Source of the DNA: [Clostridium] aerotolerans DSM 5434
Lineage (GTDB): Bacteria > Bacillota > Clostridia > Lachnospirales > Lachnospiraceae
DNA length: 64,000 nt
Assembly: GCF_000687555.1 (NCBI RefSeq)
Contig: NZ_JHWJ01000002.1
Span: 1 to 64,000 of the forward strand
Direction: 5' to 3'
Shown: positions 47,004 to 61,081 of the stretch, in pieces
How positions within the stretch are numbered: the first letter of the stretch is position 1
How the letters are laid out: each line of letters starts with the position of its first letter
The notes under the pieces: generated by a model
Told to the model about the DNA's origin: nothing
What the model saw: the letters and a program-made list of their open reading frames with translations, nothing else
The model's database searches: none
Position numbers and translations under genes: made by a program

Positions 47004-47426
47004 TTATGCAAGTGCCTTTCCAAGCTCTACACACTGTGCTTCTCCATCTGCATCTGGCTCGTTGTTACAGATTACGCTTTCATGAGCGAGCACTGCGCCA
47101 TCCTTTTTACAGGTTTCTTCCCAGTCTCTCATCCATTCGCCGTCTCCCCAGCCGTAGGAACCGAATAATGCGATCTTCTTTCCTGTCAGCTTGGGCTCAC
47201 AGCCCTTGAACATTGGTTCAAATTCGCCGTCTTCTAATTCTTCGCTTCCCATGGAAGGACATCCAAAGGCAATTGCATCGAATTCATCTACCTGCTCTGG
47301 CTGGAAATCAGATGCGTTAAATAAAGAAATCTCTGCGCCCGCTTCCTTTGCTCCATCAGCTACCTTCTTTGCCATTGCTTCTGTATTTCCTGTGCCGCTC
47401 CAAAAAACAACTGCTACTTTACTCAT
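47004..47426 (-). CDS. Flavodoxin
   Basis: 140 residues, short-chain type. The FMN phosphate loop is WSGTGNTEAMA; flavin-contact loops are GCPSMGSEELE and GSYGWGDGEWMRDW. It replaces ferredoxin as electron carrier when iron is short, in line with the iron-type operator upstream of its operon (48071-48088). AGGTAGGATAAG precedes the ATG. It follows the DUF3793 gene by 31 bases. Confidence 0.94.
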   Translation of the reverse strand: MSKVAVVFWSGTGNTEAMAKKVADGAKEAGAEISLFNASDFQPEQVDEFDAIAFGCPSMGSEELEDGEFEPMFKGCEPKLTGKKIALFGSYGWGDGEWMRDWEETCKKDGAVLAHESVICNNEPDADGEAQCVELGKALA

Positions 47427-47457
47427 CTTATCCTACCTCTTCTTTCCTTTTATTTGC

Positions 47458-48012
47458 TCAGGCAGCAACTGTTAACTGCCAGACCGTTCTGCCGTTTTTC
47501 CATAAACGCGAGTAAATGACTCTGCATTTGCGGTATCTTGCAAATTTTTTCTCCGCCTCGCATTCATTGCAGTAAACCTTCCAGCAGCCGATACATTTGC
47601 AGTTTTTACCTGCATTGTTAATAAACCCGATCACATCACCCAAAGGATATCCAAGAAAGAGTCCTATTTCATGAGGGAAGGAGCCGGATTCCTTCAGCCG
47701 CTCCGTCAGCCTGGTAAGAGCATACTCTACATCCATTTGCTCATAACCGTATTTTTTAAGAAATCTGCACACACCGGGACGATTCAAATCAGCTTCCAAA
47801 TGAGTTTTCCGATAAACATAGATCAGCGCCTTGTTATTGCGGCGGTATAATTCTATGAGAGATATTCCTTTTTCACCCAGCTGGTTGTTTAAGTGATCCA
47901 GCTGTTTTTGAAGCTCTTCATCCGATGTGAAGGAATGATTAAACAGGCTGGCTGTCTTTAAGGAAGCCAGCGTTGGGGAACAATATTCGATTAGATGTCT
48001 TTCTAGTAGCAT
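47458..48012 (-). CDS. DUF3793 protein
   Basis: 184 residues, soluble. The N-terminal part (HLIEYCSPTLASLKTASLFN), the middle GLFLGYPLGDVIGFI and the Cys-rich C-terminus (CKCIGCWKVYCNECEAEKKF) are typical of DUF3793, a family common beside flavodoxins in clostridia. The Cys cluster suggests metal or Fe-S binding. Function unknown; the operator and the flavodoxin point to an iron-limitation role. GGAGG precedes the ATG. Confidence 0.85.
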   Translation of the reverse strand: MLLERHLIEYCSPTLASLKTASLFNHSFTSDEELQKQLDHLNNQLGEKGISLIELYRRNNKALIYVYRKTHLEADLNRPGVCRFLKKYGYEQMDVEYALTRLTERLKESGSFPHEIGLFLGYPLGDVIGFINNAGKNCKCIGCWKVYCNECEAEKKFARYRKCRVIYSRLWKNGRTVWQLTVAA

Positions 48013-48514: not shown

Positions 48515-49654
48515 TTATAGGGCTGTAATCAATCCCAGGGCAAGGGAAGCGGTCTTTTCAAGCTGATCCACCGTCGTATATTCCTTTGTGGTATGGACTT
48601 CATTCATGCCACAGGCAACTACAATTCCTCGGATGCCGTTCTTAACAAAATGGTTATTATCGCTGCCTCCTAAGGTAACCTGAGTTACTGGAGTGAGACC
48701 AAGCTGGCTGCAGACCTTACGGAATCGTTTTACCACTTCCTCTTCGTCTCCGATTTCATAAGCTTCAATCTGCTTCTCATAAAGAAATTCTATACTTCCC
48801 TCATAAAGAGTTGCTGTCCTTGAAAATATTTCTCTTAATTTTTCCAGCTCCTTAAGCGCCCTCTCATCCTTTAAGCTTCTGATTTCTCCCAGTATGATGC
48901 AATCATCCGGCACGATATTGGTCTGTTTTCCGCCGCTGATTTTTCCGATATTCACGGTTGTCACTTCATCCACCCAGCCCTGCTTTAACTGGGAGATGGC
49001 ATGGGCACCTATTTCAATGGCATTGATTCCAAGCTGGGGACAAAATCCAGCATGAGCATTTCTCCCCTGTATTCTGATTTCAAAAGAAATGAGGGTTGGC
49101 GCTGCCGTGGCGGCCAGACCGATCTCTCCGCTTAAATCAAAGACGTATGCCAGATTGGAACTGACTTTAGAATAGTCAAAGATCTGACTTCCTTTTCCAT
49201 AGTTTTCTTCTGCCACCGGGAAAAGTATTTCAATGTCCGGGTGAGGGAGATTTTCTTCCTTTATGACCCGGACTGCCTCTAAAATGGCTGCAACACCAGA
49301 AAGGTCGTCAGCACCAAGTATAGTCTCGCCTTCTGAAGTAATGACTCCGTGTTCGTCCTGAATGGCACGTTTTCCGATGCCAGGACGTACGGTATCCATA
49401 TGGGCCGATAAAAGAACGGGGCTGCCCTCTGTGTTTCCTTTTAATCGTCCATAGAGATTTCCGGTGGAGGACTGATTTCCGTATCCGGTAATGCGCTCTT
49501 TTAGCTGTATTCCGGCATCATCTTCCTCCACCTCAAATCCCAATTCCTTTAACTGAAGGGTCAGATAGTCTGCAATCTCTCTTTCGTGGTAAGTTTCAGA
49601 ATCAAACTCTACCATTGTTTTAAATTGGCTGACAAGCCTGTTTGTGTTTATCAT
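48515..49654 (-). CDS. M20-family metallopeptidase (PepT-like)
   Basis: 379 residues with the metal motifs LLSAHMDTVRPG, TILGADDLSGVAAI and FPVAEENYGKGS, and a dimerisation domain (QGRNAHAGFCPQLGINAIEIG). The family includes tripeptidase T and aminoacylase-like enzymes; this sequence is of the short PepT-like kind. Last gene of the nine-gene operon, 17 bases after GHR-like copy 1. With two acetyltransferases in the same operon, a deacylase or dipeptidase acting on N-acyl or peptidyl cysteine compounds is plausible, by inference. Confidence 0.87.
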   Translation of the reverse strand: MINTNRLVSQFKTMVEFDSETYHEREIADYLTLQLKELGFEVEEDDAGIQLKERITGYGNQSSTGNLYGRLKGNTEGSPVLLSAHMDTVRPGIGKRAIQDEHGVITSEGETILGADDLSGVAAILEAVRVIKEENLPHPDIEILFPVAEENYGKGSQIFDYSKVSSNLAYVFDLSGEIGLAATAAPTLISFEIRIQGRNAHAGFCPQLGINAIEIGAHAISQLKQGWVDEVTTVNIGKISGGKQTNIVPDDCIILGEIRSLKDERALKELEKLREIFSRTATLYEGSIEFLYEKQIEAYEIGDEEEVVKRFRKVCSQLGLTPVTQVTLGGSDNNHFVKNGIRGIVVACGMNEVHTTKEYTTVDQLEKTASLALGLITAL

Positions 49655-49671
49655 ACGATCACCTGCCTGGA

Positions 49672-50697
49672 TTATTCATTTCCTTTTCCGTGGCGTTTAA
49701 ACTTCTCCTCTGGAGTTTTGCTTAATTCCTTCCGGTTTTGAGGGGCAGACCAAATACCTTCGTAATCAATCTGATTCACAAAACGGGAATTAAAGTCCTG
49801 GAAAAGGGATTTATTCTCTGACCGGGGCGCCGCAATATCCCGGAAATATGTGTTATTGCGGAAAGCCGGAATTACATATAAGTCTCTTAAGTATGCCCAT
49901 ATATTCTCATAATCCACCACCCGTCGCTTAATTGGGCCAAGATTGCGGTAATAATGGGTGTCAAACCTCGCTAATGTAACAAAAAGCCGGACATCACTGT
50001 CTGTGACATAATCGCCGAATAAAAAGCGGTTCTTTGACAGTCTCTCTTCTATCTCATCCAGAGCCTTGTAGAAATCTTCAAATGCCTCTTCATAGGCAAC
50101 AAGGGACTGGGCAAACATCATACGGTAGGTTGCATTGTTTACATTGGGAAAGAGCCAGTCATTGTAATCATCGATTTCCTGACGTAATTCTTCCGGATAT
50201 AAGTCCGGAGCGTCGGGAGCCTGGAACGGCCGGAAGGCTGTTTCAAAATAGTTGGTGAGCCTGTGGTAATCATTGTTCACCACCTGTTTTGTCGTGATGT
50301 CTACAAGAGCCGGAACGGTACAGCGTCCCTGATAATCCGGATCAGCGTTATAATAAAATTCACTTAAGAACTGAGCCCCCAGTACCGGATCTTTTCTGTC
50401 CTCATTATACACGAATTCCCATCCAAATGCACTGTTTTCCTTGCTGTGGCCCACAAGATTGATTCCAATGGCATCTGTAAGCCCCAGAAGCTCCCTTACG
50501 ATGGAGGCCCGGTTGGACCAATGACAGCCTTTGGCCCAGAAGAGACGGTATTTTCCTGCTTCTGCCTTTAACTCACCTTCTCCCTCTCCAAAAGGAGTTG
50601 TAAAATGATTGGGCTGGCGGATGAATGCCCCTCTTTCATCAATTTCATTTTCGATTTCTTTTGGACGCAGTCTTTGTTTCGTACTCAAGCTTGACAT
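49672..50697 (-). CDS. Glutathionyl-hydroquinone reductase-like protein, copy 1 (altered active site)
   Basis: 341 residues of the Xi-class GST family (ECM4/YqjG). Landmarks: FTTPFGEGEGELKAEAGKY, VPALVDITTKQVVNNDYH, APDLYPEELRQEID, and the C-terminal NRFLFGDYVTDSDVRLFVTL. The catalytic CPWA of the family reads GCHWSNR here; the two paralogues in the operon keep CPWA. The family removes thioether-linked glutathione from hydroquinones or phenacyl compounds; glutathione is rare in clostridia, so the thiol partner may be cysteine. AGGAGG lies 7 bases before the ATG. Confidence 0.87.
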   Translation of the reverse strand: MSSLSTKQRLRPKEIENEIDERGAFIRQPNHFTTPFGEGEGELKAEAGKYRLFWAKGCHWSNRASIVRELLGLTDAIGINLVGHSKENSAFGWEFVYNEDRKDPVLGAQFLSEFYYNADPDYQGRCTVPALVDITTKQVVNNDYHRLTNYFETAFRPFQAPDAPDLYPEELRQEIDDYNDWLFPNVNNATYRMMFAQSLVAYEEAFEDFYKALDEIEERLSKNRFLFGDYVTDSDVRLFVTLARFDTHYYRNLGPIKRRVVDYENIWAYLRDLYVIPAFRNNTYFRDIAAPRSENKSLFQDFNSRFVNQIDYEGIWSAPQNRKELSKTPEEKFKRHGKGNE

Positions 50698-50712
50698 ATG
50701 ATATCCTCCTGT

Positions 50713-51147
50713 TTAGATATATTTTTCCGTATGGATAATCTGAAAGATTCCTCCATCTATTTTTACTCCGTAATCCGGCTGATAGCCCAGGGCTTCATAA
50801 AAGCCAACTGCTTCATCCCGGCTGGTGATGACAATTTTTTTAACGCCCCATTCCCGGATCCAGTTCTCAGCTTCGCTGATCAAAAGTCTTCCGACTCCCT
50901 TACTCCGGTATTCACTTAAAACGCTGACACGCTCGATCTTTGCTATGTTCTCTTCCTCCAGAAGATGGATTCTGCAGGTTGCCACAGGGTAAATATCATC
51001 AAGAACTAAAACATACAGGGATTCGTTAAAATCTCCCTCATCGAATTCTTTCTCCATGGGAATATGAAATCCTTTTACCATGGTTTCAACTCTGACATAA
51101 TAGACACCTGCATACTGCCAGTTTTCCGATACTCTTACTGCTTTCAC
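50713..51147 (-). CDS. GNAT acetyltransferase, copy 1
   Basis: About 144 residues with the acetyl-CoA motif ERVSVLSEYRSKGVGRLLIS followed by SRDEAVGFYEALGYQPDYG, typical of GNAT N-acetyltransferases. Start codon is GTG at 51147, 7 bases after AGGAGG; the longer frame to 51189 runs into the upstream GHR-like gene. Between GHR-like copies 1 and 2 in the operon. Acceptor substrate unknown; an amino group of a cysteine conjugate would fit the context. Confidence 0.85.
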   Translation of the reverse strand: MKAVRVSENWQYAGVYYVRVETMVKGFHIPMEKEFDEGDFNESLYVLVLDDIYPVATCRIHLLEEENIAKIERVSVLSEYRSKGVGRLLISEAENWIREWGVKKIVITSRDEAVGFYEALGYQPDYGVKIDGGIFQIIHTEKYI

Positions 51148-51160
51148 CTTTTCGCCTCCT

Positions 51161-52117
51161 CTACTTGTAATTGATACTATCTCTTCCATGAGGTTTTAAA
51201 AAGCCGGAGAGCTCAGGGCCATCAGGCACAATTCCGTAAGGATTATTGGATACGGCACATAGATGGTAATGCTTTTTAATGGCATCAAAATCTGTGGTAT
51301 CCCCAAAGCCTTTCTGAGAGTATAAGTCTCTTACATAGCCCCAAAGATTTGGAAACTCAGAAATCCGGTTACGGTTTAAGTAAAAGCCATTATAGTATGC
51401 AACGTCAAACCGGACCAGTGTAACATACAGTCTTACATCCGATTCTGTGATTTTATCTCCAAATAAGTAACGGCTGTGGCTTAAACGCTCTTCCAGCCAA
51501 TCCAGACGGTTAAATACGAGAGAATAAGCCTCTTCATATGCCTCCTGGCTTCTGGCAAATCCAGCCTTGTATACCCCGTTGTTGATCTCGTCAAAAAGAA
51601 TCTGGTTTAATGCGTCAATCTCTTCCCTTAATTCCTCTGGATAGAGATCAGGGGCACCCGGCTTATGGTATTTGCTCCACTCTACCTCCCAGTATCTGGT
51701 CAGGTGATAGTAATCGTTATTTACTACGGTTCCTGAAGCCACATCCACTACGGCTGGAACGGTAAATCTTCCTGTGTAATCCGGGTCTGCTTTTAAATAG
51801 GCCTCGCTGATATAATGAATCTTTAATACCGGATCCACCTCACCATCATCTAAGGTAAATGCCCAGTCCGTCCGCTCCACATCGGGTCTTACAGGGTCTA
51901 AGGTACCCAGGCTTACGACATCTTGAAGGCCTAAAAGGCTTCGAACAATCACAGATCTGTGAGCCCATGGACAGGCTGGAGACCAAAGCAGGCGGTATTT
52001 GTTAGGTTCTACGGGGAGCTGCCCCTCCTCTATTCCAAAGGGAGTGGTAAAACGATTCTTCTGTCGTTTAAACTTCCCGTCTTTTTCTACTTCACTGGTG
52101 ATAAATCTTTCTGACAT
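51161..52117 (-). CDS. Glutathionyl-hydroquinone reductase-like protein, copy 2
   Basis: 318 residues. The catalytic site is canonical (SPACPWAHRSVIVRSLLG), and the remaining landmarks match copies 1 and 3: FTTPFGIEEGQLPVEPNKY, VPAVVDVASGTVVNNDYYHL, APDLYPEELREEID, SRYLFGDKITESDVRLYVTL. GST-fold enzymes with a catalytic Cys reduce mixed thioether adducts. AGAGGAAA precedes the ATG. Downstream gene is GNAT copy 1 after 13 bases; upstream is GNAT copy 2 after 27 bases. Confidence 0.9.
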   Translation of the reverse strand: MSERFITSEVEKDGKFKRQKNRFTTPFGIEEGQLPVEPNKYRLLWSPACPWAHRSVIVRSLLGLQDVVSLGTLDPVRPDVERTDWAFTLDDGEVDPVLKIHYISEAYLKADPDYTGRFTVPAVVDVASGTVVNNDYYHLTRYWEVEWSKYHKPGAPDLYPEELREEIDALNQILFDEINNGVYKAGFARSQEAYEEAYSLVFNRLDWLEERLSHSRYLFGDKITESDVRLYVTLVRFDVAYYNGFYLNRNRISEFPNLWGYVRDLYSQKGFGDTTDFDAIKKHYHLCAVSNNPYGIVPDGPELSGFLKPHGRDSINYK

Positions 52118-52144
52118 GGCAATTTCCTCTTTTCTTATTGGCTG

Positions 52145-52636
52145 TTATGACCTTTTCATGTCTTCTCTTCCATACTCATCCACGAACCGGTATGATTCCG
52201 GAAGCATGAATCCTTCCTCCTCCATAAAGGCTCTGGACTCTTCGGAACCGTTAAAGATACACATGGCGGTCTTGCTTCTTCGAAATCCCATTTTTTCATA
52301 TAGGGCTACCGTTCTTGGATGGGTATAAAGAATCACATTCTGGCCTTTTACCTGATCAAGAAGAAGAGTGATCAGCTTTCTGCCCACTCCAATTCCCTGA
52401 AATTCTTCCTCAATAGCTATGTTATAAATAGCTGCCTGGCAGACTCCGTCGGATAAGGCTCTCCCCACTCCGATGAGTCTTTCCCCGTGGTAGACAAATA
52501 CCACGGCATAGCTGTTTGTGAAGATGGTCTCCTGCTCCTCTTTCGTATGGTCAGAAAGTCCGGACCGGCGAAGGATATCGGAAACTTCCTGCCAGTTCAC
52601 ATGTTCTCTTGTTGTCTTATAGGTAATATCGTTCAT
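52145..52636 (-). CDS. GNAT acetyltransferase, copy 2
   Basis: 163 residues with the CoA-binding motif IAIEEEFQGIGVGRKLITLL and a later LYEKMGFRRSKTAM. Clearly different from the GNAT at 50713, so the operon holds two acetyltransferase types. GGAGG lies 6 bases before the ATG. It follows the ABC ATPase gene by 32 bases. Acceptor unknown. Confidence 0.86.
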   Translation of the reverse strand: MNDITYKTTREHVNWQEVSDILRRSGLSDHTKEEQETIFTNSYAVVFVYHGERLIGVGRALSDGVCQAAIYNIAIEEEFQGIGVGRKLITLLLDQVKGQNVILYTHPRTVALYEKMGFRRSKTAMCIFNGSEESRAFMEEEGFMLPESYRFVDEYGREDMKRS

Positions 52637-52668
52637 GTAAAACCTCCAGAAGCTTAAACTTTTTCCTG

Positions 52669-53433
52669 CTAAATTGTAAAATCCGGACTTTCCAGCATAT
52701 GAATCTTTACCAGGAACTCTTTTAAGCGTTCATTTTTAGGATTATCAAAAATTTCCTTGGGAGTTCCATCAGCTACTATTTTTCCATTTTCCAGAAACAG
52801 GATTCGGTTTGCTACGTTTTTAACAAAGTTCATTTCGTGAGTGACCAGTAATATGGTGTTTCCCTCTTTGGCTGCATTCCGAATGGTGGTCAGTACTTCA
52901 CTGACTAATTCCGGGTCAAGAGCGGAGGTGGGTTCATCCATGAGAAGAAGTCCCGGGTCCATGGCAAGTGCTCTGGCTATGGCGACACGCTGCTGCTGTC
53001 CGCCAGATAAGTGTCTGGGATAATGAAAGAGGCGGTCTCCCATTCCTACCTTTTGAAGGTGCTTTATGGCAAGCTCCCTGGCCTCATTCTTTTTTAACTT
53101 CTTTACTACCATTAAGCCTTCCATTACATTTTCAAGAGCCGTTCGGTTCTTAAAGAGATTGAACTGCTGGAAAACCATTTCCGTATATCGTCTCAGCTCC
53201 AGCTTCTCTTTGGAGGATTTGGTGGTCAAATCAATGGTTCTGCCATTGATGATTACAGTGCCCTGTTCTGGCTTCTCAAGGAGATTGATGGAGCGTAAAA
53301 GGGTTGACTTTCCCGTACCGGAAGGGCCGATGATAGCTACTACATCTCCCTTGTTAACGGTTAAATCCATGTTATCGAGTACCACATTTTCGCCGTACTT
53401 TTTACTCAATCCGCGAATTTCAATTGCGCTCAT
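52669..53433 (-). CDS. Polar amino acid/cystine-type ABC transporter ATPase
   Basis: 254 residues with Walker A GPSGTGKST, signature LSGGQQQRVAIARAL and Walker B LLLMDEPTSALDPELV. The sequence is of the GlnQ/TcyN type. It overlaps the permease gene by 14 bases. Together with the permease and lipoprotein it forms one importer; the surrounding sulfur genes suggest cystine or a modified cysteine. Confidence 0.93.
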   Translation of the reverse strand: MSAIEIRGLSKKYGENVVLDNMDLTVNKGDVVAIIGPSGTGKSTLLRSINLLEKPEQGTVIINGRTIDLTTKSSKEKLELRRYTEMVFQQFNLFKNRTALENVMEGLMVVKKLKKNEARELAIKHLQKVGMGDRLFHYPRHLSGGQQQRVAIARALAMDPGLLLMDEPTSALDPELVSEVLTTIRNAAKEGNTILLVTHEMNFVKNVANRILFLENGKIVADGTPKEIFDNPKNERLKEFLVKIHMLESPDFTI

Positions 53434-54163
53434 TTCCCATACCTCCTTTTACAACTGTTACCTGCTCCGGTACGCTCATCCTTTTTTCAATGTATGAGAA
53501 CAGTCTTTCAATGAAGATTGTCAGCACCCAGTAGATGATGGCAAGAGAACAGTAAATCTCAAAATAACGGTAGCTGCTGCCAGCTAAAATCTTACCCTGA
53601 GCGGTTATTTCCACCACGGAACAGGTAAATGCAAGAGACGTGCCTTTTACCAGACCGATGAGCGAGTTTCCAAGGGACGGTATGGCAACCGTCACTGCCT
53701 GGGGAAACAGCACTCTCCGAAAGATCTGGAAGCCGTTCATCCCTAAGGATTTAGCGGCTTCCACCTGGCCTTTTTCTACGGACTGGATGGCAGCACGTAT
53801 GGTTTCCGAGTCAAAAGCGGACTGATTTAAGCCCAATGCCACGATGGCAAAAATAATTGGCGGTATCCCGTTGACGTTATATTCGGTTCCATTGTAGAAA
53901 TTGTAGTATTTTAAGGCAATGGGAATCCCAAAGTAAGTTAGGTAGAGCTGAACGATAATAGGGGTTCCTCTTACTACCGATACGAACAGCGCACAAATTT
54001 GCCGTAAGACCGGAATGTTGTGAATTTTTACAAATGCGATCAAAAGCCCTACTACCCAGCCGATTACCAGGGCGATTACCGTCAGTTTTAAGGTTACGGG
54101 CAAGTATTTTAGTAATGCGGGAATTTCCGTAAATACCAGCTGCCAATCAAATATTTTGCTCAT
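53420..54163 (-). CDS. Polar amino acid/cystine-type ABC transporter permease
   Basis: 247 residues with about five membrane helices and the HisM/GlnP-type coupling loop EAAKSLGMNGFQIFRRVLFPQA (19 residues of it: AAKSLGMNGFQIFRRVLFP). VVRGTPIIVQLYLTYFG is also typical. It follows the lipoprotein gene by 24 bases and overlaps the ATPase gene. Confidence 0.92.
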   Translation of the reverse strand: MSKIFDWQLVFTEIPALLKYLPVTLKLTVIALVIGWVVGLLIAFVKIHNIPVLRQICALFVSVVRGTPIIVQLYLTYFGIPIALKYYNFYNGTEYNVNGIPPIIFAIVALGLNQSAFDSETIRAAIQSVEKGQVEAAKSLGMNGFQIFRRVLFPQAVTVAIPSLGNSLIGLVKGTSLAFTCSVVEITAQGKILAGSSYRYFEIYCSLAIIYWVLTIFIERLFSYIEKRMSVPEQVTVVKGGMGNERN

Positions 54164-54187
54164 CTTGTTCCTCCAGCTAATCCTTCT

Positions 54188-55120
54188 TTATTTATAGGAA
54201 GGAGAATAATCGTTACCAAACCATTTTAAGTTGATTTCCTTTGAGGTTCCGTCTTCAACGACTTCTTTTAAGGCTTTGTTTAAATCTTCCACCAGTTTTT
54301 CATTTCCTTTGCTGACGATTAAGTAGCTGAATGGTTCTCCCATCAGTTCCTTGGAAATATCATTATTTAAAGAAATGCCGGTTACATTAAAGTTGAACTC
54401 TTTCTGGTAATACTCAAACATTGGTTTATCCATTAAAACGAAATCGTATTTTCCAGCCTCTACATCCTGAATCTGAAGAACAAGGTCTTCTTCGCTGTAT
54501 TCGATGTTGATTGGTTTTGATGGATTGGCGGCATTATAATTTTCAAGTGCAGTGGTTATGTTGATGCCCGCCTGGGAAATGGTCTTTAAACCAGCAAGGT
54601 CATCCCAGGATTCAATTGTTTCTGCTTTGGCATTGTCTTTTTTAAAGATGGCAACGTATTCATTGGCAAAAATCGGGTCTGTAAATAAGTACTTTTCTTT
54701 TCTCTTTTCATTCTTTGCAAAGTTATTTACACCAATCTGGTAACGGTCTGAATCAAGTCCTGCAAAGATGGAAGGAAAATCAGTCACTTCGATTTCAAGC
54801 TTATACTGAGGAAGACGTTCAAAAATAGCTTTGATTAATTCAATGTTATGTCCTGTCAGTGTATTGTCTTTATCTACGAAGGTAAATGGCTTTGGAGAGC
54901 CGCCTGTAGCCGCGTAGATGGTGATTGGCTCTGTTTTATTCTCTCCTGCAGCTGTTGTGCTTTCCGCTGTCTTTGTTTCCTCTGAGGAAGCCTCACTGGC
55001 TTTACTCGTCTGAGCTTCTGTTGGTTTGCTCTCCTGCTTTGCGCAGCCTGCCAATGCGCCGATTACGGCTGCTGCTGTAAGGAATCCTAATACTGTCTTT
55101 TTTGCAAAATTTTTCTTCAT
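54188..55120 (-). CDS. Amino acid-binding lipoprotein of the ABC importer
   Basis: About 310 residues with a lipoprotein signal and lipobox (IGALAGC), a Ser/Thr/Glu-rich linker of ~45 residues, then a family 3 binding domain (PFTFVDKDNTLTGHNIELIK, FAGLDSDRYQIGVNNFAKN, KYLFTDPIFANEYVAIFKK). These stretches resemble cystine-binding TcyA/TcyK proteins. The ATG at 55120 lies 7 bases after GAGGAG. GHR-like copy 3 ends 23 bases upstream. Confidence 0.91.
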   Translation of the reverse strand: MKKNFAKKTVLGFLTAAAVIGALAGCAKQESKPTEAQTSKASEASSEETKTAESTTAAGENKTEPITIYAATGGSPKPFTFVDKDNTLTGHNIELIKAIFERLPQYKLEIEVTDFPSIFAGLDSDRYQIGVNNFAKNEKRKEKYLFTDPIFANEYVAIFKKDNAKAETIESWDDLAGLKTISQAGINITTALENYNAANPSKPINIEYSEEDLVLQIQDVEAGKYDFVLMDKPMFEYYQKEFNFNVTGISLNNDISKELMGEPFSYLIVSKGNEKLVEDLNKALKEVVEDGTSKEINLKWFGNDYSPSYK

Positions 55121-55143
55121 AACTTTTCTCCTCATTTTTAAGT

Positions 55144-56133
55144 TTAATATTGAACTAGTCTTTTTCCAAATTTCTCATCTCTGTTATGTGGTTCGGACCA
55201 AATGGAAGTATCCGGGCCAAGGGGAAGGATATTGTAAGGATTATGTGCGTGATTACCCAGGAGATATCCTTTCTTAATGGATACAAAATCCGTTGCTTCT
55301 TTAAAAGCTGGAATGGAATATAAGTCCTTTGCATAATTCCACAGGTTCTCAAAATCCGTAAGCCGGTTTCTGTTTGTCTTAAAGCAGAAATAATAGGCTG
55401 TATCAAATCTTGCCAGGGTCACGTATAAGCGGATATCGGAATCTGTGATCTGATCTCCAAACAGATATCTGCTTTTTGACAGGCGTTCCTCCAGCCAGTC
55501 AAGCCGTTCAAACAGTACCTCATAGGCTTTTTCATATTCCTCCTGGGACTGGGCAAAGCCGGACTTATAAACTCCGTTATTGACATCGTGGAACAAAATA
55601 ACATTCAGTTCATCGATTTCTTTTCTTAATTCTTCTGGGTATAGATCAGGTGCCCCTTCTTTATGAAGCGGCTTCCATGCCGTTTCCCAATGGTTTGTCA
55701 GGTGGTGGTAATCGTTATTTACTACCTTTCTGGTCTTTACATCTACCACAGTTGGAACCGTTGCTCTTCCCTCATACTCCGGTGCTGTCTCTGCATAGAT
55801 TTCTGGAAGATAGCGAATCTGTAATACCGGATCAACACCTCCTTCATCTAAGGAAAATTCCCAGCCCTGTTCTGTTCTTATGGGGCTTACAGTTCCTACG
55901 CTGATTGCATCCTCTAAGCCAAGAAGCTTTAATGCAATGATCTGTCGCGTGGCCCAGGGACAAAGGGGAGTCCAGATAAGGCGGTACCGTCCGGCCTCCA
56001 CCGGAAGCTCTCCTTCCCCATCTCCAAATGGAGTAATAAAGTAATTTTCCTGTCTTACAAATGCTCCTGTCTTTGATACTTCGTGAGCATCTTCCGATGT
56101 TACCACCTTGCCGAATTTCTCATCTATCGCCAT
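55144..56133 (-). CDS. Glutathionyl-hydroquinone reductase-like protein, copy 3
   Basis: About 329 residues with canonical active site TPLCPWATRQIIALKLLG and the same landmarks as the other copies (FITPFGDGEGELPVEAGRY, VPTVVDVKTRKVVNNDYHHL, APDLYPEELRKEID, SRYLFGDQITDSDIRLYVTL). It is the first gene of the nine-gene operon and is preceded by a Cys-containing leader ORF and a terminator-like hairpin. Start at 56133 after GAAGGAAA; the longer frame to 56166 runs into the leader terminator. Confidence 0.9.
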   Translation of the reverse strand: MAIDEKFGKVVTSEDAHEVSKTGAFVRQENYFITPFGDGEGELPVEAGRYRLIWTPLCPWATRQIIALKLLGLEDAISVGTVSPIRTEQGWEFSLDEGGVDPVLQIRYLPEIYAETAPEYEGRATVPTVVDVKTRKVVNNDYHHLTNHWETAWKPLHKEGAPDLYPEELRKEIDELNVILFHDVNNGVYKSGFAQSQEEYEKAYEVLFERLDWLEERLSKSRYLFGDQITDSDIRLYVTLARFDTAYYFCFKTNRNRLTDFENLWNYAKDLYSIPAFKEATDFVSIKKGYLLGNHAHNPYNILPLGPDTSIWSEPHNRDEKFGKRLVQY

Positions 56134-56163
56134 AATTTTTTCCTTCTTTCCGATTTTTGGGTA

Positions 56164-56192
56164 CAAAAAAAGCAGATGCCGTCCGACCCCTG
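56164..56192 (-). terminator. Attenuator-like hairpin between the Cys leader and the nine-gene operon
   Basis: On the minus strand AGCAGG pairs with TCTGCT around a 12-base loop and is followed at once by a run of seven T. It stands after the leader ORF and about 35 bases before the first structural gene, where an attenuator would be. Confidence 0.5.
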
Positions 56193-56220
56193 CTCACCAC
56201 AGCATACGATGCATAGGATA

Positions 56221-56304
56221 TCAGGTTTCGCTATACGTACAGCATAAGGAGAGTCTGCACATGACGGTTAAATTATTGCTTGATTTCATTTTCCAACGCT
56301 TCAT
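56221..56304 (-). CDS. Cys-containing leader peptide of the nine-gene sulfur operon
   Basis: A 27-codon ORF, MKRWKMKSSNNLTVMCRL then SLCCTYSET, with a strong ribosome site (AAAGGAG, 7 bases before the ATG). Three Cys codons fall within seven residues near the end. It lies between the likely promoter (TATGAT around 56345) and a hairpin with a T-run (56164-56192). This is the layout of a ribosome-mediated attenuator that would respond to charged tRNA-Cys. Nothing homologous is known to me. Confidence 0.5.
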   Translation of the reverse strand: MKRWKMKSSNNLTVMCRLSLCCTYSET

Positions 56305-56384
56305 CTGAAAACTCCTTTCTGGGCTTCCTTGCTTCTTTCTTAAATCATACCATTCCTATAGGTTTCTGTATAATACGAAAAAAA

Positions 56385-56454: not shown

Positions 56455-57387
56455 TTAGCCAAATAATGGGGTGGACAGATAGCGGTCACCGGAATCAGGT
56501 AATACCACAACAATGGTCTTTCCCTTGTTTTCAGGTCTTTCTGCTAATATTTTTGCTGCTCTCAATGCTGCACCAGATGAAATACCTACAAGGATTCCCT
56601 CGGTAACTGCAAAGGTCTTTCCTTCTGCAAATGAATCTTCATTCTCTACTGTGATGACCTCATCATAAATTTTTGTATCCAATACCTCTGGTACGAATCC
56701 TGCTCCGATTCCCTGAATCTTATGAGGACCTGGATTTCCTCCGGAAAGTACCGGGCTGCTTGCAGGCTCTACGGCTACGATCTTAATATCCGGATTCTTC
56801 TCTTTTAAATAAGAGCCTGCTCCAGTGATGGTTCCGCCAGTTCCTACGCCTGCAACAAAGATATCTACGGTTCCATCGGTCTGCTCCCAAATCTCTGGTC
56901 CGGTGGTCGCTCTGTGCACCTTAGGATTTGCTGGATTTACGAACTGGCCAAGGATTACAGCACCAGGAATGGACTCCTTTAATTCCTCTGCCTTTGCAAT
57001 GGCGCCCTTCATGCCTTTGGCTCCTTCTGTCAGTACCAGCTCTGCGCCGTAAGCTTTTAATAAGTTTCTTCGTTCCACACTCATGGTATCCGGAAGAGTA
57101 AGTACAGTCTTATAGCCCTTTGCTGCTGCAACTGCTGCAAGGCCGATTCCTGTATTGCCGGAGGTTGGCTCGATAATGGTAGCACCCTCCTTTAATACGC
57201 CGCTTGCTTCTGCGTCTTCGATCATAGCAAGTGCGATACGATCTTTTACAGAGCCTGCCGGATTTAAGTATTCCAGCTTCGCAAGAATGGTAGCGTCCTT
57301 GATCCCTTCCTTTGCACTGTAGCGGTTTAATTTAAGTAACGGTGTTCCTCCAATTAATTCTAATGCGCTTTCTTTGATTGCTCCCAT
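56455..57387 (-). CDS. cysK: Cysteine synthase (O-acetylserine sulfhydrylase)
   Basis: 310 residues, standard CysK length. The PLP lysine is in [15 protein letters not shown] and the substrate loop is [24 protein letters not shown] binds phosphate. It makes cysteine from O-acetylserine and sulfide. Start at 57387, 8 bases after GGAGG. It has its own promoter (57675-57703), a poly-Cys leader ORF and a long hairpin directly before the ribosome site, suggesting cysteine-dependent control. Confidence 0.95.
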
Positions 57388-57426
57388 GATATGTTCCTCC
57401 ATTTTTTAATTTGATTATGAATAAGA

Positions 57427-57460
57427 GCAGCTGCCACTTTGGCACCTGCTCTTTGGTATT
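57427..57460 (-). promoter_or_regulatory. Hairpin directly before cysK
   Basis: AAGAGCAG-x-TGCCA pairs with TGGCA-x-CTGCTCTT, extendable by ATGAAT/ATTCAT. It has no T-run. It lies between the leader ORF and the cysK ribosome site, so it may affect translation rather than termination. Confidence 0.55.
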
Positions 57461-57520: not shown

Positions 57521-57619
57521 TTACAATAAAACCGTATCACTCTCCATACATACAGCCTGACAACAACATTTATTATTAAAATAGATCCGATTAGAGATAA
57601 CATTCGTATTATATTTCAT
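57521..57619 (-). CDS. Poly-Cys leader peptide of cysK
   Basis: A 32-codon ORF (MKYNTNVISNRIYFNN, then KCCCQAVCMESDTVLL) with ribosome site AAGGTGG 6 bases before the ATG. Three consecutive TGT codons (57560-57568) are followed by a fourth Cys three codons later. The RNA of the third Cys codon and the next residues (TGTCAGGC, at 57555-57562) is an exact 8-base complement of GCCTGACA at 57500-57507, past the stop codon, so a ribosome held at the Cys codons would disrupt that pairing. I read it as a cysteine-sensing leader. The frame is also open upstream, but without a ribosome site. Confidence 0.6.
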   Translation of the reverse strand: MKYNTNVISNRIYFNNKCCCQAVCMESDTVLL

Positions 57620-57721: not shown

Positions 57722-58906
57722 TTAAAGTTCTGCTATGGCAGCCTTCAGCTTATCAAGAGCCAGCTTTAAGGTTGACTTCGGACATGCAATGTTAATCCGC
57801 TCAAACCCTTCTCCAGCTTCTCCGAAAATAGCACCGCTATCCAGCCAGAGACCCGCTTTTGTTACAATCATTGACTCCCGCTCTTCTTCTGTGAGTCCAA
57901 GTCCCCGAAAATCAAGCCATATAAGATAAGTACCCTCCGGCTCAATCAGCTTGATCTGAGGCAGATGTTCCTTTAGATACTCCCTTACAAAGGAAAGATT
58001 TTCTTTTAAGTACTCCATCAGCTCCTCATGCCACGCTTCTCCATGGCGGTATGCTGCTTCACAAGCCGTAAGTCCCAGGGTGTTTAGCTGACTGTAGCCT
58101 GCGGCTGCGATTTCTTTTTTAAACCTTCTTCTGATATCAGCATTTGAAATAAAAATATTGGAGACCTGAAGACCGGCCAGGTTAAAGGTCTTGCTGGGAG
58201 CCGTACAGGTGATCGTTCTGTTTCTAAGCTCGTCTCCAATGTTTGCAAATACCTGATGCTTTCCGTCGTAAATAAAATCCTGATGGATCTCATCGCTGAT
58301 GACAAGAATGTCGTGGCGGATGCAGATTTCACCCAGCTTTTCTAATTCCTCTCTGGAATAGACTCTTCCCACCGGATTGTGGGGATTGCATAAGAGGAAT
58401 AATTTCACCTTGTTTTCCACAGCCTTTTTTTCAAAGTCTGCCAGGTCCATTCTGTAAATACCGTCTTCTGAAAGGACCAGGGTATTGTCCACGATCCTTC
58501 TGTCATTGTCCTCAATCACTTCGCTGAAGGGATAATAAACCGGCTGCTGGATCATAACTCCGTCTCCCGGCTTTGTAAAGGCCCTCACAGCCATTGCCAG
58601 GGCGAACACGACGCCAGGAGTCTTAACAAGCCATCTCCGCTCCACAGACCAGTCATGCCGCTCTTTCATCCAGTCCCTTACTGCTTCAAAATAATCCTCC
58701 TGTACCTCGCTGTAGCCGAAAATACCATGGGAAACCCGTTCCGTTATGGCATCTAAAATCTCCTGAGAGACTCTAAAATCCATATCTGCGACCCACAAGG
58801 GCAGTACATGCTCCGGTTTTCCTCTGCGCAGGGCAAAGTCGTATTTCAGACAGTTGGTATTCCTTCTCTCTATTAATTCATCAAAATCGTAATTTCTCTT
58901 ACTCAT
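57722..58906 (-). CDS. patB: PatB/MalY-type cysteine-S-conjugate beta-lyase
   Basis: 394 residues, PLP fold type I. Landmarks: LPLWVADMDFRVSQEI, LLCNPHNPVGRVYSREEL, VISDEIHQDFIYDG and the PLP lysine in TAPSKTFNLAGLQVSN. MalY/PatB enzymes cleave the C-S bond of cystathionine and other S-substituted cysteines to give a thiol, pyruvate and ammonia. That activity fits the neighbouring importer and GST-like genes. The ATG overlaps the end of the upstream PLP lyase gene by 8 bases, so the two form an operon. Confidence 0.93.
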   Translation of the reverse strand: MSKRNYDFDELIERRNTNCLKYDFALRRGKPEHVLPLWVADMDFRVSQEILDAITERVSHGIFGYSEVQEDYFEAVRDWMKERHDWSVERRWLVKTPGVVFALAMAVRAFTKPGDGVMIQQPVYYPFSEVIEDNDRRIVDNTLVLSEDGIYRMDLADFEKKAVENKVKLFLLCNPHNPVGRVYSREELEKLGEICIRHDILVISDEIHQDFIYDGKHQVFANIGDELRNRTITCTAPSKTFNLAGLQVSNIFISNADIRRRFKKEIAAAGYSQLNTLGLTACEAAYRHGEAWHEELMEYLKENLSFVREYLKEHLPQIKLIEPEGTYLIWLDFRGLGLTEEERESMIVTKAGLWLDSGAIFGEAGEGFERINIACPKSTLKLALDKLKAAIAEL

Positions 58907-60053
58907 GAAATACCTGCTCCAATTCTTTGATTAAATCTTCTGCATCTTCAATTCCTACGGATAACCGTAAAATCCGGTCCGTAACTCCATTAGCAGCCAG
59001 AACCTCTTTCGGTACATCGGCATGGGTCTGGGTGATGGGATAAGTAATCAGAGTTTCTACCCCTCCCAGGCTCTCCGCAAAACGGATCAACCGGACCTCC
59101 TTTAAAATCTTATGGGCCAGTTCCTTTGATTCCACCTCAAAGGTGACCATACAGCCAAAGCCTCTCGCCTGCTTTTTACAGACCTCATGTCCCGGATGAT
59201 CTTTAAGCCCCGGGTAACAGACCTTTGTTACCTTCTTTTCGTTACAAAGAAAGGAAACCAGCTGCTCTGCATTTTTCTCTGCCCGGTCCATTCTAAGGGC
59301 CAGTGTCTTAATTCCTCTTAAGATCAGCCAGCTGTCAAATGGAGCAAGTCCTGAGCCCACTGTCTTAATAAGGAAGCGCAGCTTTTCAGAAAGCTCTTCG
59401 GTTGAGGCTACTAAAAATCCAGCTATGGTATCGTTATGTCCTCCCAGATATTTGGTTCCGCTGTGAACCACAATATCTGCCCCCAGCTTTAAGGGATTCT
59501 GAAAATAAGGAGACATAAATGTATTATCAACAATAAGGAGAAGTCCATGTCTTTTTGATATCTCTGCCAGCCTTTCAATGTCAATGACATTCATCATTGG
59601 ATTGGTGGGCGTCTCAATAAAGATAGCTTTTGTATTTTCTCCTACCAGCTTCTCAAATTCTTCGGGAGAACATTTTGCGCAGTCCACGTTGCTGAATAAG
59701 ATTCCATTTTTCTTGCTCACGTTGTCAAAAAGACGAATGCTTCCTCCATATAAATCGCAATCCGTAATGATATGGTCACCTGGACGGAATAATTCCATCA
59801 AAGCCGTAATAGCTGCCATTCCACTGGAAAATGCCAGGGCATCCACGCCATTTTCCAAAGCTGCCACTACCTTTTCCAGCTGTTCTCTTGTTGGGTTTTG
59901 GAGACGGCTGTAATCGTACCCGGTGCTTTCTCCCACACCTCTATGTGCGAAGGTAGCTGTCTGATAAATAGGGAAGCTGATTGCCCCTGAACGATCTACC
60001 GTTTCCTCTGTTCCATTGCCGTATAAACACTTTGTTGATATTCCATATTCCAT
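58899..60053 (-). CDS. Cys/Met-metabolism PLP enzyme (cystathionine lyase/synthase type)
   Basis: 384 residues, the length of cystathionine gamma-synthase and beta/gamma-lyases. PLP lysine is in VVHSGTKYLGGHNDTIAG; other landmarks are YDYSRLQNPTREQLE and ETPTNPMMNVIDIE. The reaction (MetB, MetC or gamma-lyase) cannot be fixed by reading alone. Start at 60053 after GCGGTGG; the longer frame is discarded. It heads an operon with patB. A LysR-type palindrome is centred about 67 bases before its likely transcription start. Confidence 0.88.
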   Translation of the reverse strand: MEYGISTKCLYGNGTEETVDRSGAISFPIYQTATFAHRGVGESTGYDYSRLQNPTREQLEKVVAALENGVDALAFSSGMAAITALMELFRPGDHIITDCDLYGGSIRLFDNVSKKNGILFSNVDCAKCSPEEFEKLVGENTKAIFIETPTNPMMNVIDIERLAEISKRHGLLLIVDNTFMSPYFQNPLKLGADIVVHSGTKYLGGHNDTIAGFLVASTEELSEKLRFLIKTVGSGLAPFDSWLILRGIKTLALRMDRAEKNAEQLVSFLCNEKKVTKVCYPGLKDHPGHEVCKKQARGFGCMVTFEVESKELAHKILKEVRLIRFAESLGGVETLITYPITQTHADVPKEVLAANGVTDRILRLSVGIEDAEDLIKELEQVFHE

Positions 60054-60141
60054 ACTTATCCACCGCTTTCTCATTTTATTTTCTCTTATAAGTATACCCA
60101 TATGGTAGGTTGAACCGCTAATACTAAAAAACGATAGCCTG

Positions 60142-60172: not shown

Positions 60173-61081
60173 TTACAATAGCTGGGCTTCATACTTTTTT
60201 AGCTCGTCAATATATTTCGTTCCAAGAACACTTAAAGGCATTTTTTTCTTTTTAATATACCCAATTCTCATCTTATCCTCTGTATCAAGAGGAATGGCAC
60301 GATATTCGCCTCCGTTTAAATCCTCACAGATGATACCGCAGCAAAGAGTGTAGCCATTTAACCCCACCATGAGATTTAATAAGGTAGCCCTGTCATCTGC
60401 CTTAATGATCTGCTTATATTCATAGGTGCTGAATACTTCTTCTGCCAGATAAAAGGAATTGTTATTCCCCTGTTCAAAGGAAAGACAGGGATAATTTTTA
60501 AGGTCTTCAAATCCGATCCGGTCCATGGCTGCAAGGGGATTTCCTTTCCAAAGATACACATAGATCCCGCATCGAAACAGATCGATGAACTCTAAGTCAT
60601 TGTCAGCAAGAAGTTTTTCCATGGCTTTCTGGTTAAAATCATTTAAATAAAGGATTCCCACTTCGCTCTTCTGGTTTTTTACATTTAATATAACTTCATA
60701 GGTCTTTGTTTCATGGACGGCAAACTCATAATCATCCATACCAAACTCTTTTGCCATATGAATGAAAGCCTGAACCGCAAAGGTATAATGCTGCATGGAA
60801 ACACTGAACTTCTTTTTAAACTTTTCCTTTTTAACAAACCGTTCTTCCATCTGACGGTACTGCTCTAACATCTGTCTGGCATATCCTAAAAATTCTTCCC
60901 CATCCGGTGTGATCACAATGCCACGGTTGGAACGAAGAAATATGGTCAGACCTATCTCCTCCTCTAAATCCCTTATGGTGCTGGACAGGCTCGGCTGGGT
61001 GATGAATAGCTCCGCGGCGGCCTTGTTCATGGATTTCTGGTTGGCAATGCAGACGGCGTACCGTAACTGTTGTAATGTCAT
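60173..61081 (-). CDS. LysR-family regulator of sulfur genes
   Basis: 302 residues. The N-terminal winged HTH is canonical (QLRYAVCIANQKSMNKAAAEL then FITQPSLSSTIRDLEEEIG), followed by a LysR substrate domain. Its place between the lyase-patB operon and metY, with matching palindromes at both promoters, points to control of these genes, as CysL/YtlI/MetR-type regulators do elsewhere. The co-inducer may be O-acetylserine or O-acetylhomoserine, by analogy. AAAGGAG lies before the ATG. Confidence 0.91.
   Translation of the reverse strand: MTLQQLRYAVCIANQKSMNKAAAELFITQPSLSSTIRDLEEEIGLTIFLRSNRGIVITPDGEEFLGYARQMLEQYRQMEERFVKKEKFKKKFSVSMQHYTFAVQAFIHMAKEFGMDDYEFAVHETKTYEVILNVKNQKSEVGILYLNDFNQKAMEKLLADNDLEFIDLFRCGIYVYLWKGNPLAAMDRIGFEDLKNYPCLSFEQGNNNSFYLAEEVFSTYEYKQIIKADDRATLLNLMVGLNGYTLCCGIICEDLNGGEYRAIPLDTEDKMRIGYIKKKKMPLSVLGTKYIDELKKYEAQLL

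Follow-up and report, generated by a model that had tools for sequence, protein, structure and literature searches.

Background

In Bacillus subtilis, the scm (yxe) locus encodes a pathway for S-(2-succino)cysteine, of which a 2SL variant also exists (PMC9706529, PMC12757645), and the ytmI/cmo pathway salvages S-alkylcysteine by N-acetylation, removal of the S-group by the two flavoenzymes CmoO and CmoJ, and deacetylation (PMC10863075). The scm/yxe loci are recognised by the presence of at least three of YxeK, YxeL, YxeMNO, YxeP and YxeQ, and 11 of 102 yxe loci possess neither YxeK nor 2SL (PMC9706529). In this work we analysed a stretch of 64,000 nucleotides of [Clostridium] aerotolerans DSM 5434 (assembly GCF_000687555.1, contig NZ_JHWJ01000002.1, positions 1 to 64,000), hereafter called the window, which carries a nine-gene operon that shares with the scm/yxe loci an amino-acid ATP-binding cassette (ABC) importer, an acetyltransferase, a variable breakdown enzyme and an M20-type hydrolase. 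Three of its genes encode relatives of the Xi-class glutathione S-transferases (GST), the glutathionyl-hydroquinone reductases (GHRs).

Xi enzymes act on hydroquinone adducts and, some of them, on acetophenone adducts, and MstX of Corynebacterium glutamicum reduces mycothiolyl-hydroquinone (PMC6815410). The motif CPWA has been described as strictly conserved in this class (PMC6345682). In ScECM4, E173 and S174 contact the glutamyl group, R15 the glutamyl carbonyl, W79 and V158 the cysteine and R155 the glycine carboxylate, next to a triad formed by Tyr 224, 301 and 346 (PMC5063366). As to control by cysteine, leader attenuators with Cys codons precede cys operons of Actinobacteria (PMC1262725), the cysS gene of Rhodobacterales has a Cys-codon leader with a terminator, uORFC-8-2 (PMC8632094), and cysK of Clostridium perfringens is regulated by a Cys T-box (PMC2940859).

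We found the operon of the window to be real, conserved and linked to cysteine. It is plausibly an oxygen-independent variant of the acetylate-break-deacetylate strategy (PMC9706529, PMC12757645), and on balance we lean towards a salvage operon that is induced by cysteine starvation, works without oxygen and would use the GHRs to break the C-S bond.

Results

A conserved nine-gene operon

The nine genes occupy positions 48515-56133 on the minus strand and run, in the direction of transcription, from GHR3 to the M20 gene, as given by the layout of the open reading frames (ORFs) and by Pfam assignments that fit the names used. From low to high coordinates they are:

48515..49654, minus strand: M20 family metallohydrolase, PepT-like (TIGR01883; NCBIfam 313.1 bits against a cut-off of 274.25; PDB relatives 3gb0 and 3rza)
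49672..50697, minus strand: GHR1, Xi-GST relative with C-H-W-S in place of C-P-W-A (family match, alignment and tree)
50713..51189, minus strand: GNAT1 acetyltransferase (family match)
51161..52117, minus strand: GHR2, Xi-GST relative with CPWA (family match and PDB comparison)
52145..52636, minus strand: GNAT2 acetyltransferase (family match)
52669..53433, minus strand: ABC transporter ATPase, cystine-type (best NCBIfam model TcyN, 308 bits, under its cut-off of 406)
53420..54163, minus strand: ABC permease, cystine-type (best model cystine permease, 174 bits, under its cut-off of 300)
54188..55135 (or start at 55120), minus strand: substrate-binding lipoprotein, family 3 (family match; PDB relatives include YtmK, 2o1m)
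55144..56133, minus strand: GHR3, Xi-GST relative with CPWA, the first structural gene (family match)

Gaps of 17, 15, 27, 32 and 24 bases and overlaps of 29 (GNAT1/GHR2) and 14 bases (ATPase/permease) join the genes; the lipoprotein is separated from GHR3 by 8 or 23 bases, depending on the ATG chosen (55135 or 55120, the latter with the better ribosome-binding site (RBS)), and GHR3 starts at 56133 (ATG) or 56166 (TTG). A previous sequence-only reading had proposed nine genes in this order on one strand, with three GHR-family paralogues in a single run, and ORF positions and Pfam families bear out both points. Its short gaps and overlaps were likewise recovered, with a range of 8-32 bases instead of 13-32, but its upper boundary, 56304, belongs to no operon gene: a short Cys ORF of its own (56221-56304) begins there. 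Its importer, GNATs and M20 hydrolase stand as gene families, whereas the label cystine-type rests on models scoring under their cut-offs. GHR1-3 are old paralogues, since they are only 45-60% identical to one another (GHR1-GHR2 45%, GHR1-GHR3 48%, GHR2-GHR3 60%).

GHR2 was matched in 18 of the 25 genomes of the window's genus, its own included, near full length in 17 and over 90 bases in one. All 17 genomes with a near-full-length GHR show the order GHR3-substrate-binding protein (SBP)-permease-ATPase-GNAT2-GHR2-GHR1-M20, some with extra inserted genes; one of these loci is split over two contigs and another lies on a truncated contig. GNAT2 is present in each of the 17 operons; GNAT1, recognisable in six, was rejected as a core member and is dispensable. 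Family-wide, 21 of 397 genomes gave a GHR2 match at E 1e-20 or better, and in 13 of 16 family genomes from outside the genus (of 19 matching) an ABC ATPase at least 44% identical lies near a GHR, with none in the other three. The distribution is patchy, as only 3 of 398 genomes matched at 1e-60 in a phylum-wide draw, the own genome counted.

A GHR1 profile run against GTDB genomes detected 422 relatives, and the best 80 of them served as named loci. Among their sources are Lacrimispora, Kineothrix, Konateibacter, Roseburia, Coprococcus, Streptococcus, Paenibacillus, Clostridium, Paucilactobacillus, Treponema and Lonepinella, many being metagenome-assembled genomes (MAGs). Counted within some 9 kb on the same strand (tblastn, E 1e-5, weak matches of about 30% included), in a set with many short contigs and some near-duplicates of genus genomes and without a random-locus comparison, a GNAT occurs in 69 of the 80 loci, a binding protein in 57, permease and ATPase in 52, a GNAT together with a binding protein or permease in 56, a PepT-like M20 in 36, a lyase of the cystathionine lyase/synthase type in 30, PatB in 28 and CysK in 26. 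Clustering of neighbour ORFs of at least 90 aa yielded ten families present in at least 24 loci, all of them counterparts of window genes, and no other family in more than 11. The co-occurrence in relatives on which the sequence-only reading had staked its proposal thus holds in 17 of 25 genus genomes and 56 of 80 named loci. Its restriction to anaerobic conditions is too narrow: as Paenibacillus and Streptococcus carry the cluster, it is not confined to anaerobes.

Some loci deviate. In five genus genomes (L065-L069), GHR3 and the binding protein are set apart by an inserted gene run that includes a second ABC ATPase (41-42% identical). In one chromosome (L070 (G024) / L140 (CP070896.1)), GHR1, GHR3, PATB, MGL and LYSR are broken up, apparently by sequencing indels and not by a biological change. 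Two MAGs titled Paenibacillaceae (L102 and L147; SIG286, SIG287) with Lacrimispora-like loci and a GHR1 90% identical to that of the window are probably mislabelled records, and Treponema sp. UBA4873 (L113) carries four GHRs with transporter, GNAT and M20 of Lachnospiraceae-like kind, by horizontal transfer or binning error. Just downstream of M20, window positions 47004-48012 encode a DUF3793 protein and a second protein that by eye resembles a flavodoxin, and among genus loci only L060-L063 share them.

Breakdown enzyme and M20 hydrolase compared with those of B. subtilis

The amino-acid ABC importer and GNAT of an scm/yxe locus are present in the window at the family level, which does not imply orthology to YxeMNO or YxeL. 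Unlike the scm/yxe loci, the operon has a predicted Xi-GST relative as breakdown enzyme, an M20 of another subfamily and no recognised YxeQ gene, in a genome without a match to the flavin mononucleotide (FMN) monooxygenase family. We take YxeK to belong to TIGR03860 and YxeP to TIGR01891. The own genome (99.97% complete) gave no match to TIGR03860 (FMN monooxygenases), and thus to no monooxygenase of YxeK type, nor to TIGR01435 (GshF-like), PF04107 (GCS2) or PF10079 (BshC). The same families matched in 9, 3, 5 and 3 of 14 control genomes, B. subtilis being among the nine and no TIGR01435 control match exceeding its cut-off; beside the monooxygenases, this search covered glutathione and bacillithiol families. 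Eighteen of 25 other cluster genomes have no TIGR03860 protein above cut-off. With the ytmI/cmo system the proposed pathway shares the order of the steps, and the binding lipoprotein has YtmK among its relatives (2o1m, third best PDB match, E 8.5e-29), GHRs being found in the window operon instead of CmoO and CmoJ.

The sequence-only reading had compared the M20 protein with the M20-type deacetylase of the ytmI-type operon, but it turned out to be PepT-like. For the window protein a YtnL/YxeP-type deacetylase was rejected, because it scores above the cut-off of TIGR01883 and far under that of the amidohydrolase subfamily TIGR01891, and the own genome holds no TIGR01891 protein above cut-off. 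Eleven of the 80 loci have an M20 family of TIGR01891 type (nine of its 11 members were checked, all above cut-off), and seven of these 11 have no PepT-like M20. In L120, L121, L139 and L144 the TIGR01891 gene is part of the gene run, in L146 and L150 it is several kb off, and in L156 it is on the opposite strand; the run of Streptococcus sobrinus reads SBP-GNAT-GHR2-GHR1-M20, with an M20 of this subfamily. Two M20 subfamilies may fill one slot, a swap that favours a deacylation or a peptidase step but does not tell the two apart.

Active sites of the GHR enzymes

Similarity to Xi GSTs extends over most of the length of the enzymes, 3m1g being the best solved match of both GHR2 (E 3.9e-100) and GHR1 (E 4.3e-58). 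On a tree of 164 rows (156 different sequences) built by a quick method with no bootstrap, the 89 GHR1 rows cluster together with full support on a long branch, the 14 rows of CPHA/CPHS type fall into a single group, and the CPWA type needs three changes. The catalytic Cys is retained in 163 of the 164 GHRs and is Arg in one Paenibacillus copy. CPWA is present in GHR2 and GHR3 of the window and absent from the CPHA/CPHS group (14 rows) and from GHR1, which has C-H/N/Q-W-S, with CHWS and CNWS among its forms, in 89 of 89 rows.

The ScECM4 contacts were placed on the cluster enzymes by motif, not by alignment to the ScECM4 sequence. On this basis, Asp occupies the E173 position in 158 of the 163 grouped rows, and at the S174 position all 89 GHR1 rows have Tyr, all 60 CPWA rows Tyr or Phe, and 11 of 14 CPHA rows His, so that within the 163 grouped rows the Glu-Ser of the glutathione site was not found in GHR1-3, which have Asp-Tyr/Phe instead. 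R155 is retained in 162 of the 163, W79 in 151 and V158 in 146, and Thr or Ile prevails at the R15 position. Of the Tyr triad, the 224 position is retained in 162 of 163 rows, 301 in all 163 and 346 in 59/60 CPWA and 14/14 CPHA rows, the last being lost in GHR1. The window GHRs thus share with YqjG, ScECM4 and TvGSTX the sequence family, the catalytic Cys and two or three residues of the triad, but differ from them by Asp-Tyr at the Glu-Ser glutamyl site and, in GHR1, by the CPWA Pro and the third Tyr.

The five displayed Xi sequences of glutathione or gamma-Glu-Cys type (Natrialba, E. coli YqjG, 3ppu and two Trametes enzymes) have N-E-S at this site, and 3m1g and 4pts, which are also best matches of the cluster enzymes, have N-D-Y or N-D-F; six more Xi-type chains among the matches were outside the displayed alignments or a mutant of one shown. 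We take 3m1g to be MstX of C. glutamicum and 4pts to be a chain from a mycothiol-maker; mycothiol carries an N-acetylated cysteine. The cluster enzymes share the N-D-Y/F site with 3m1g, and with MstX if 3m1g is indeed that enzyme. For MstX, the extracts of PMC6815410 describe no salvage operon. A glutamyl pocket that is gone, together with a free-carboxylate Arg that is kept, fits N-acetylcysteine, as the operon GNATs would supply it, and N-acetylcysteine rather than glutathione would then be the GHR thiol. Glutathione, with whose adducts the sequence-only reading had associated the family, is not likely in view of the changed Glu-Ser site and the lack of matches to glutathione-family genes in the genome.

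In six genus genomes (L068, L071, L072, L073, L075 and L076) GHR2 and GHR1 form a single open frame of 652-658 residues, and L070 has such a fusion with a frameshift. GNAT1, which lies between both genes in the window, was not recognised in the fusion loci. Two fusion origins are likely, because the L068 junction is unlike that of the other fusions. The in-frame fusions suggest a pairwise action of GHR1 and GHR2.

A fourth GHR, of CPHA type and 58% identical to GHR2, is encoded on another contig (G000:C9:75541-76470). It is the first gene of a run (L059:9497-17178) with SsuA/SsuC/SsuB-like ABC genes (under model cut-offs), a GldA-like dehydrogenase and a HisC-like aminotransferase, and is thus paired with a sulfonate-type importer.

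Cys-codon leaders before GHR3 and cysK

Three elements were located ahead of GHR3:

56221..56304, minus strand: leader ORF of 27 codons with three Cys codons (..MCRLSLCC..) and a good RBS; counterparts in relatives
56165..56193, minus strand: candidate terminator between the leader ORF and GHR3 (stem 56172-56193, U-run 56165-56171); conserved in 10 aligned leaders
56344..56372, minus strand: promoter-like site with extended -10, upstream of the leader; from a promoter scan in which the total of promoter-like sites was not above shuffles

The clustered Cys codons and RBS are what a ribosome-mediated Cys attenuator would have. Counterparts with at least three Cys precede GHR3 in 11 of 16 genus upstream regions, the window included, several with four or five Cys in a run. 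The candidate terminator stem is nearly invariant in the aligned leaders (97.1% of alignment cells paired). Upstream of the operon follow cysK with a leader of its own, two lyase-type genes and a regulator:

56455..57402, minus strand: cysK (TIGR01139, above cut-off)
57425..57451, minus strand: cysK leader terminator hairpin (leader alignment and folds)
57521..57619, minus strand: cysK leader ORF, 32 aa, ..NNKCCCQAVCM..; counterpart in 16/16 genus cysK upstream regions
57722..58906, minus strand: PatB-type C-S lyase (TIGR04350, above cut-off)
58899..60101, minus strand: cystathionine lyase/synthase family pyridoxal phosphate enzyme (under every model cut-off shown)
60173..61081, minus strand: LysR-type regulator, named by eye from the sequence; homologue in 11/80 loci

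All 16 genus cysK regions have a leader with CCC-Q. The Cys-codon region of the cysK leader is paired with an arm further downstream (94.3% of cells), a separate terminator stem then being 83.8% paired, and an alternative arm pairs with the 5' half of the terminator in 81% of cells; when the Cys-codon region was withheld from folding, the antiterminator won in one of four cysK leaders. A double change at columns 21/79 of the protector helix falls in a Cys codon (UGU/UGC), so that one side of it may be coding.

Across the 80 loci, short intergenic ORFs with an RBS and at least three Cys in six residues numbered 20 in sense and 2 in antisense, eight of the 20 coming from the window's genus. Terminator-like stems were seen by eye after the unrelated leaders of GHR operons in Roseburia inulinivorans, a Coprococcus MAG and G142, and no clear stem was seen by eye after the leader of a Treponemataceae GHR operon. 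A known riboswitch or T-box leader was rejected, the sole Rfam match in the window at gathering scores being a tRNA. Like the leaders of the Actinobacteria cys operons (PMC1262725) and uORFC-8-2 (PMC8632094), those of the window are short tandem-Cys ORFs before sulfur or Cys-tRNA genes, in uORFC-8-2 also with a terminator, but phyla and genes are different; unlike cysK of C. perfringens, which has a Cys T-box (PMC2940859), cysK of the window has a Cys leader ORF.

Poly-Cys leaders before both the GHR operons and cysK suggest induction by cysteine starvation, and the operon is probably switched on when cysteine is short; attenuation is the best reading of these leaders, not a proven mechanism. 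They are an independent indication of a link to cysteine supply, coming from a feature absent from the sequence-only reading. In L107, poly-Cys short ORFs (L107:4252-4353, ..SCCCMCCCRMCD, and L107:14373-14441, ..MCCCL) stand before a sulfonate-type ABC run and an O-acetylhomoserine sulfhydrylase gene, and Cys leaders may therefore control a wider sulfur regulon in Lachnospiraceae. Ahead of the window leader, the stretch CCTATAGGAATGGTA (56348-56362) is found with small changes only in most aligned genus loci; it may resemble a CymR-type site.

Discussion

We propose the following course of events. When charged tRNA-Cys is scarce, ribosomes would stall on the leader Cys codons and the downstream terminator would be avoided. 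The cystine-type importer would, judging from its family, take up S-substituted cysteine, which a GNAT would N-acetylate. The catalytic Cys of a GHR would then attack the sulfur, so that the S-substituent leaves as R-H and an enzyme-S-S-N-acetylcysteine is left, to be resolved by a second thiol, and the M20 hydrolase would take off the acyl or amino-acid group to give cysteine. C-S cleavage by the GHRs, the predicted core step, is drawn from the known Xi mechanism combined with the change in the G-site. The GHRs would thereby stand in for the oxygen-dependent monooxygenases of the Bacillus scm/cmo pathways, and several paralogues, with GHR2 and GHR1 as a pair, could broaden the range of S-substituents. 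Known Xi chemistry, on hydroquinone and acetophenone adducts, points to substituents that leave as stabilised carbanions, for example quinol adducts of cysteine from plant phenols; the likeliest natural substrates would be cysteine adducts of quinones or of other stabilised-carbanion leaving carbons, such as plant polyphenol adducts, and S-succinyl-cysteine is an unlikely one. Lonepinella from the koala gut is described as degrading tannin-protein complexes and has a COG0435 gene listed (PMC7583611); Lonepinella and the herbivore-gut MAGs fit plant-phenol adducts, which is only suggestive as sampling is biased.

Several observations weigh against this pathway or its control. The neighbouring PatB, CysK and lyase offer a C-S lyase route without need of a GHR, the PDB relatives of the PepT-like M20 are annotated as peptidase T or tripeptidase, and the transporter subunits score under the cut-offs of specific cystine models. 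That GHRs take the place of monooxygenases, as the sequence-only reading had it, agrees with the absence of TIGR03860 from the own genome, but seven of the 25 other cluster genomes, all Paenibacillus or Bacillus, have such monooxygenases as well. The G-site match to 3m1g (presumably MstX) and 4pts is partial: neither has Arg at the R155 position, where the cluster enzymes retain it, for which reason the cluster GHRs are not simply of mycothiol type. GHR1 may differ in chemistry, because it has lost the CPWA Pro and the last Tyr of the triad. As for the leaders, the other five of the 16 genus GHR3 upstream regions are short intergenic regions without a leader, and the GHR3 terminator of the window is imperfect, not in the predicted fold and missed by a generic terminator scan. 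Covariation did not exceed controls for the GHR3 terminator or shuffles for the cysK antiterminator. In the window GHR3 leader, the only one folded, antiterminator-like pairing is predicted whether or not a ribosome is stalled, and folding of the leader as a whole does not surpass that of shuffles (z -0.17), so that whole-leader folding was dropped as evidence.

The strongest rival, though rather unlikely in our view, is a salvage of mixed disulfides, in which cystine, S-sulfocysteine or other S-thiolated cysteines are imported and the GHRs reduce them as glutaredoxin-like thiol transferases, leaving the C-S bond intact. The cystine-type transporter and the cysteine-linked leaders would suit this equally, and thiol transferase activity is recorded for the Xi-type MstX (PMC6815410), but the GNAT and M20 genes would be left unexplained, as would three or four old GHR paralogues with differing active sites, and no thioredoxin or glutaredoxin is among the ten neighbour families found in at least 24 of the 80 loci (rarer neighbours and ORFs under 90 aa not being all identified). 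We give a little less credence still to a salvage of S-conjugated cysteinyl peptides such as Cys-Gly, with the M20 as peptidase, the GHRs cleaving the free conjugate and the GNATs detoxifying its excess by N-acetylation: the M20 and its PDB relatives are of that kind and a protective role of N-acetylation has been discussed (PMC9706529, PMC12757645), yet the binding protein is of amino-acid and not of peptide type, and a TIGR01891 amidohydrolase is found without a PepT-like M20 in 7 of 80 loci. A defence against quinone or electrophile stress, with GHRs regenerating thiols from intracellular quinone adducts and a transporter that merely replenishes cysteine, would draw on known Xi activities (PMC5063366, PMC6815410) and on the herbivore-gut and koala sources among the 80 loci, but is improbable, as the linkage of importer, GNAT and M20 in several phyla and the Cys leaders point to sulfur acquisition and the glutathione and bacillithiol families searched are unmatched in the genome.

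Beyond oxygen-independent C-S cleavage in the window operon itself, we tentatively put forward, without holding it to be the probable case, a third and oxygen-independent class of S-cysteine breakdown: a Xi subfamily using N-acetylcysteine in the place of glutathione, with GHR2-GHR1 pairs, paralogues for other S-substituents and a cysteine-attenuated operon spread among gut, soil and oral bacteria, which would harvest sulfur from cysteine capped by polyphenols or xenobiotics. Among the literature matches listed (titles and abstract openings, with few subscription papers), neither an operon of GHR, cystine transporter and GNAT nor a poly-Cys attenuator in Firmicutes was found.

Conclusions

The presumed control by Cys leaders renders the link of this operon to sulfur directly testable. 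If the proposed pathway is true, it shows how anaerobes regain cysteine from S-adducts without oxygen, and it provides a candidate enzyme for some of those yxe loci, 11 of 102, to which no breakdown enzyme could be assigned (PMC9706529). It would moreover give transferase-like enzymes a role in a bacterium without a match to the glutathione families searched, and would suggest that gut microbes strip cysteine conjugates of plant phenols or drugs.

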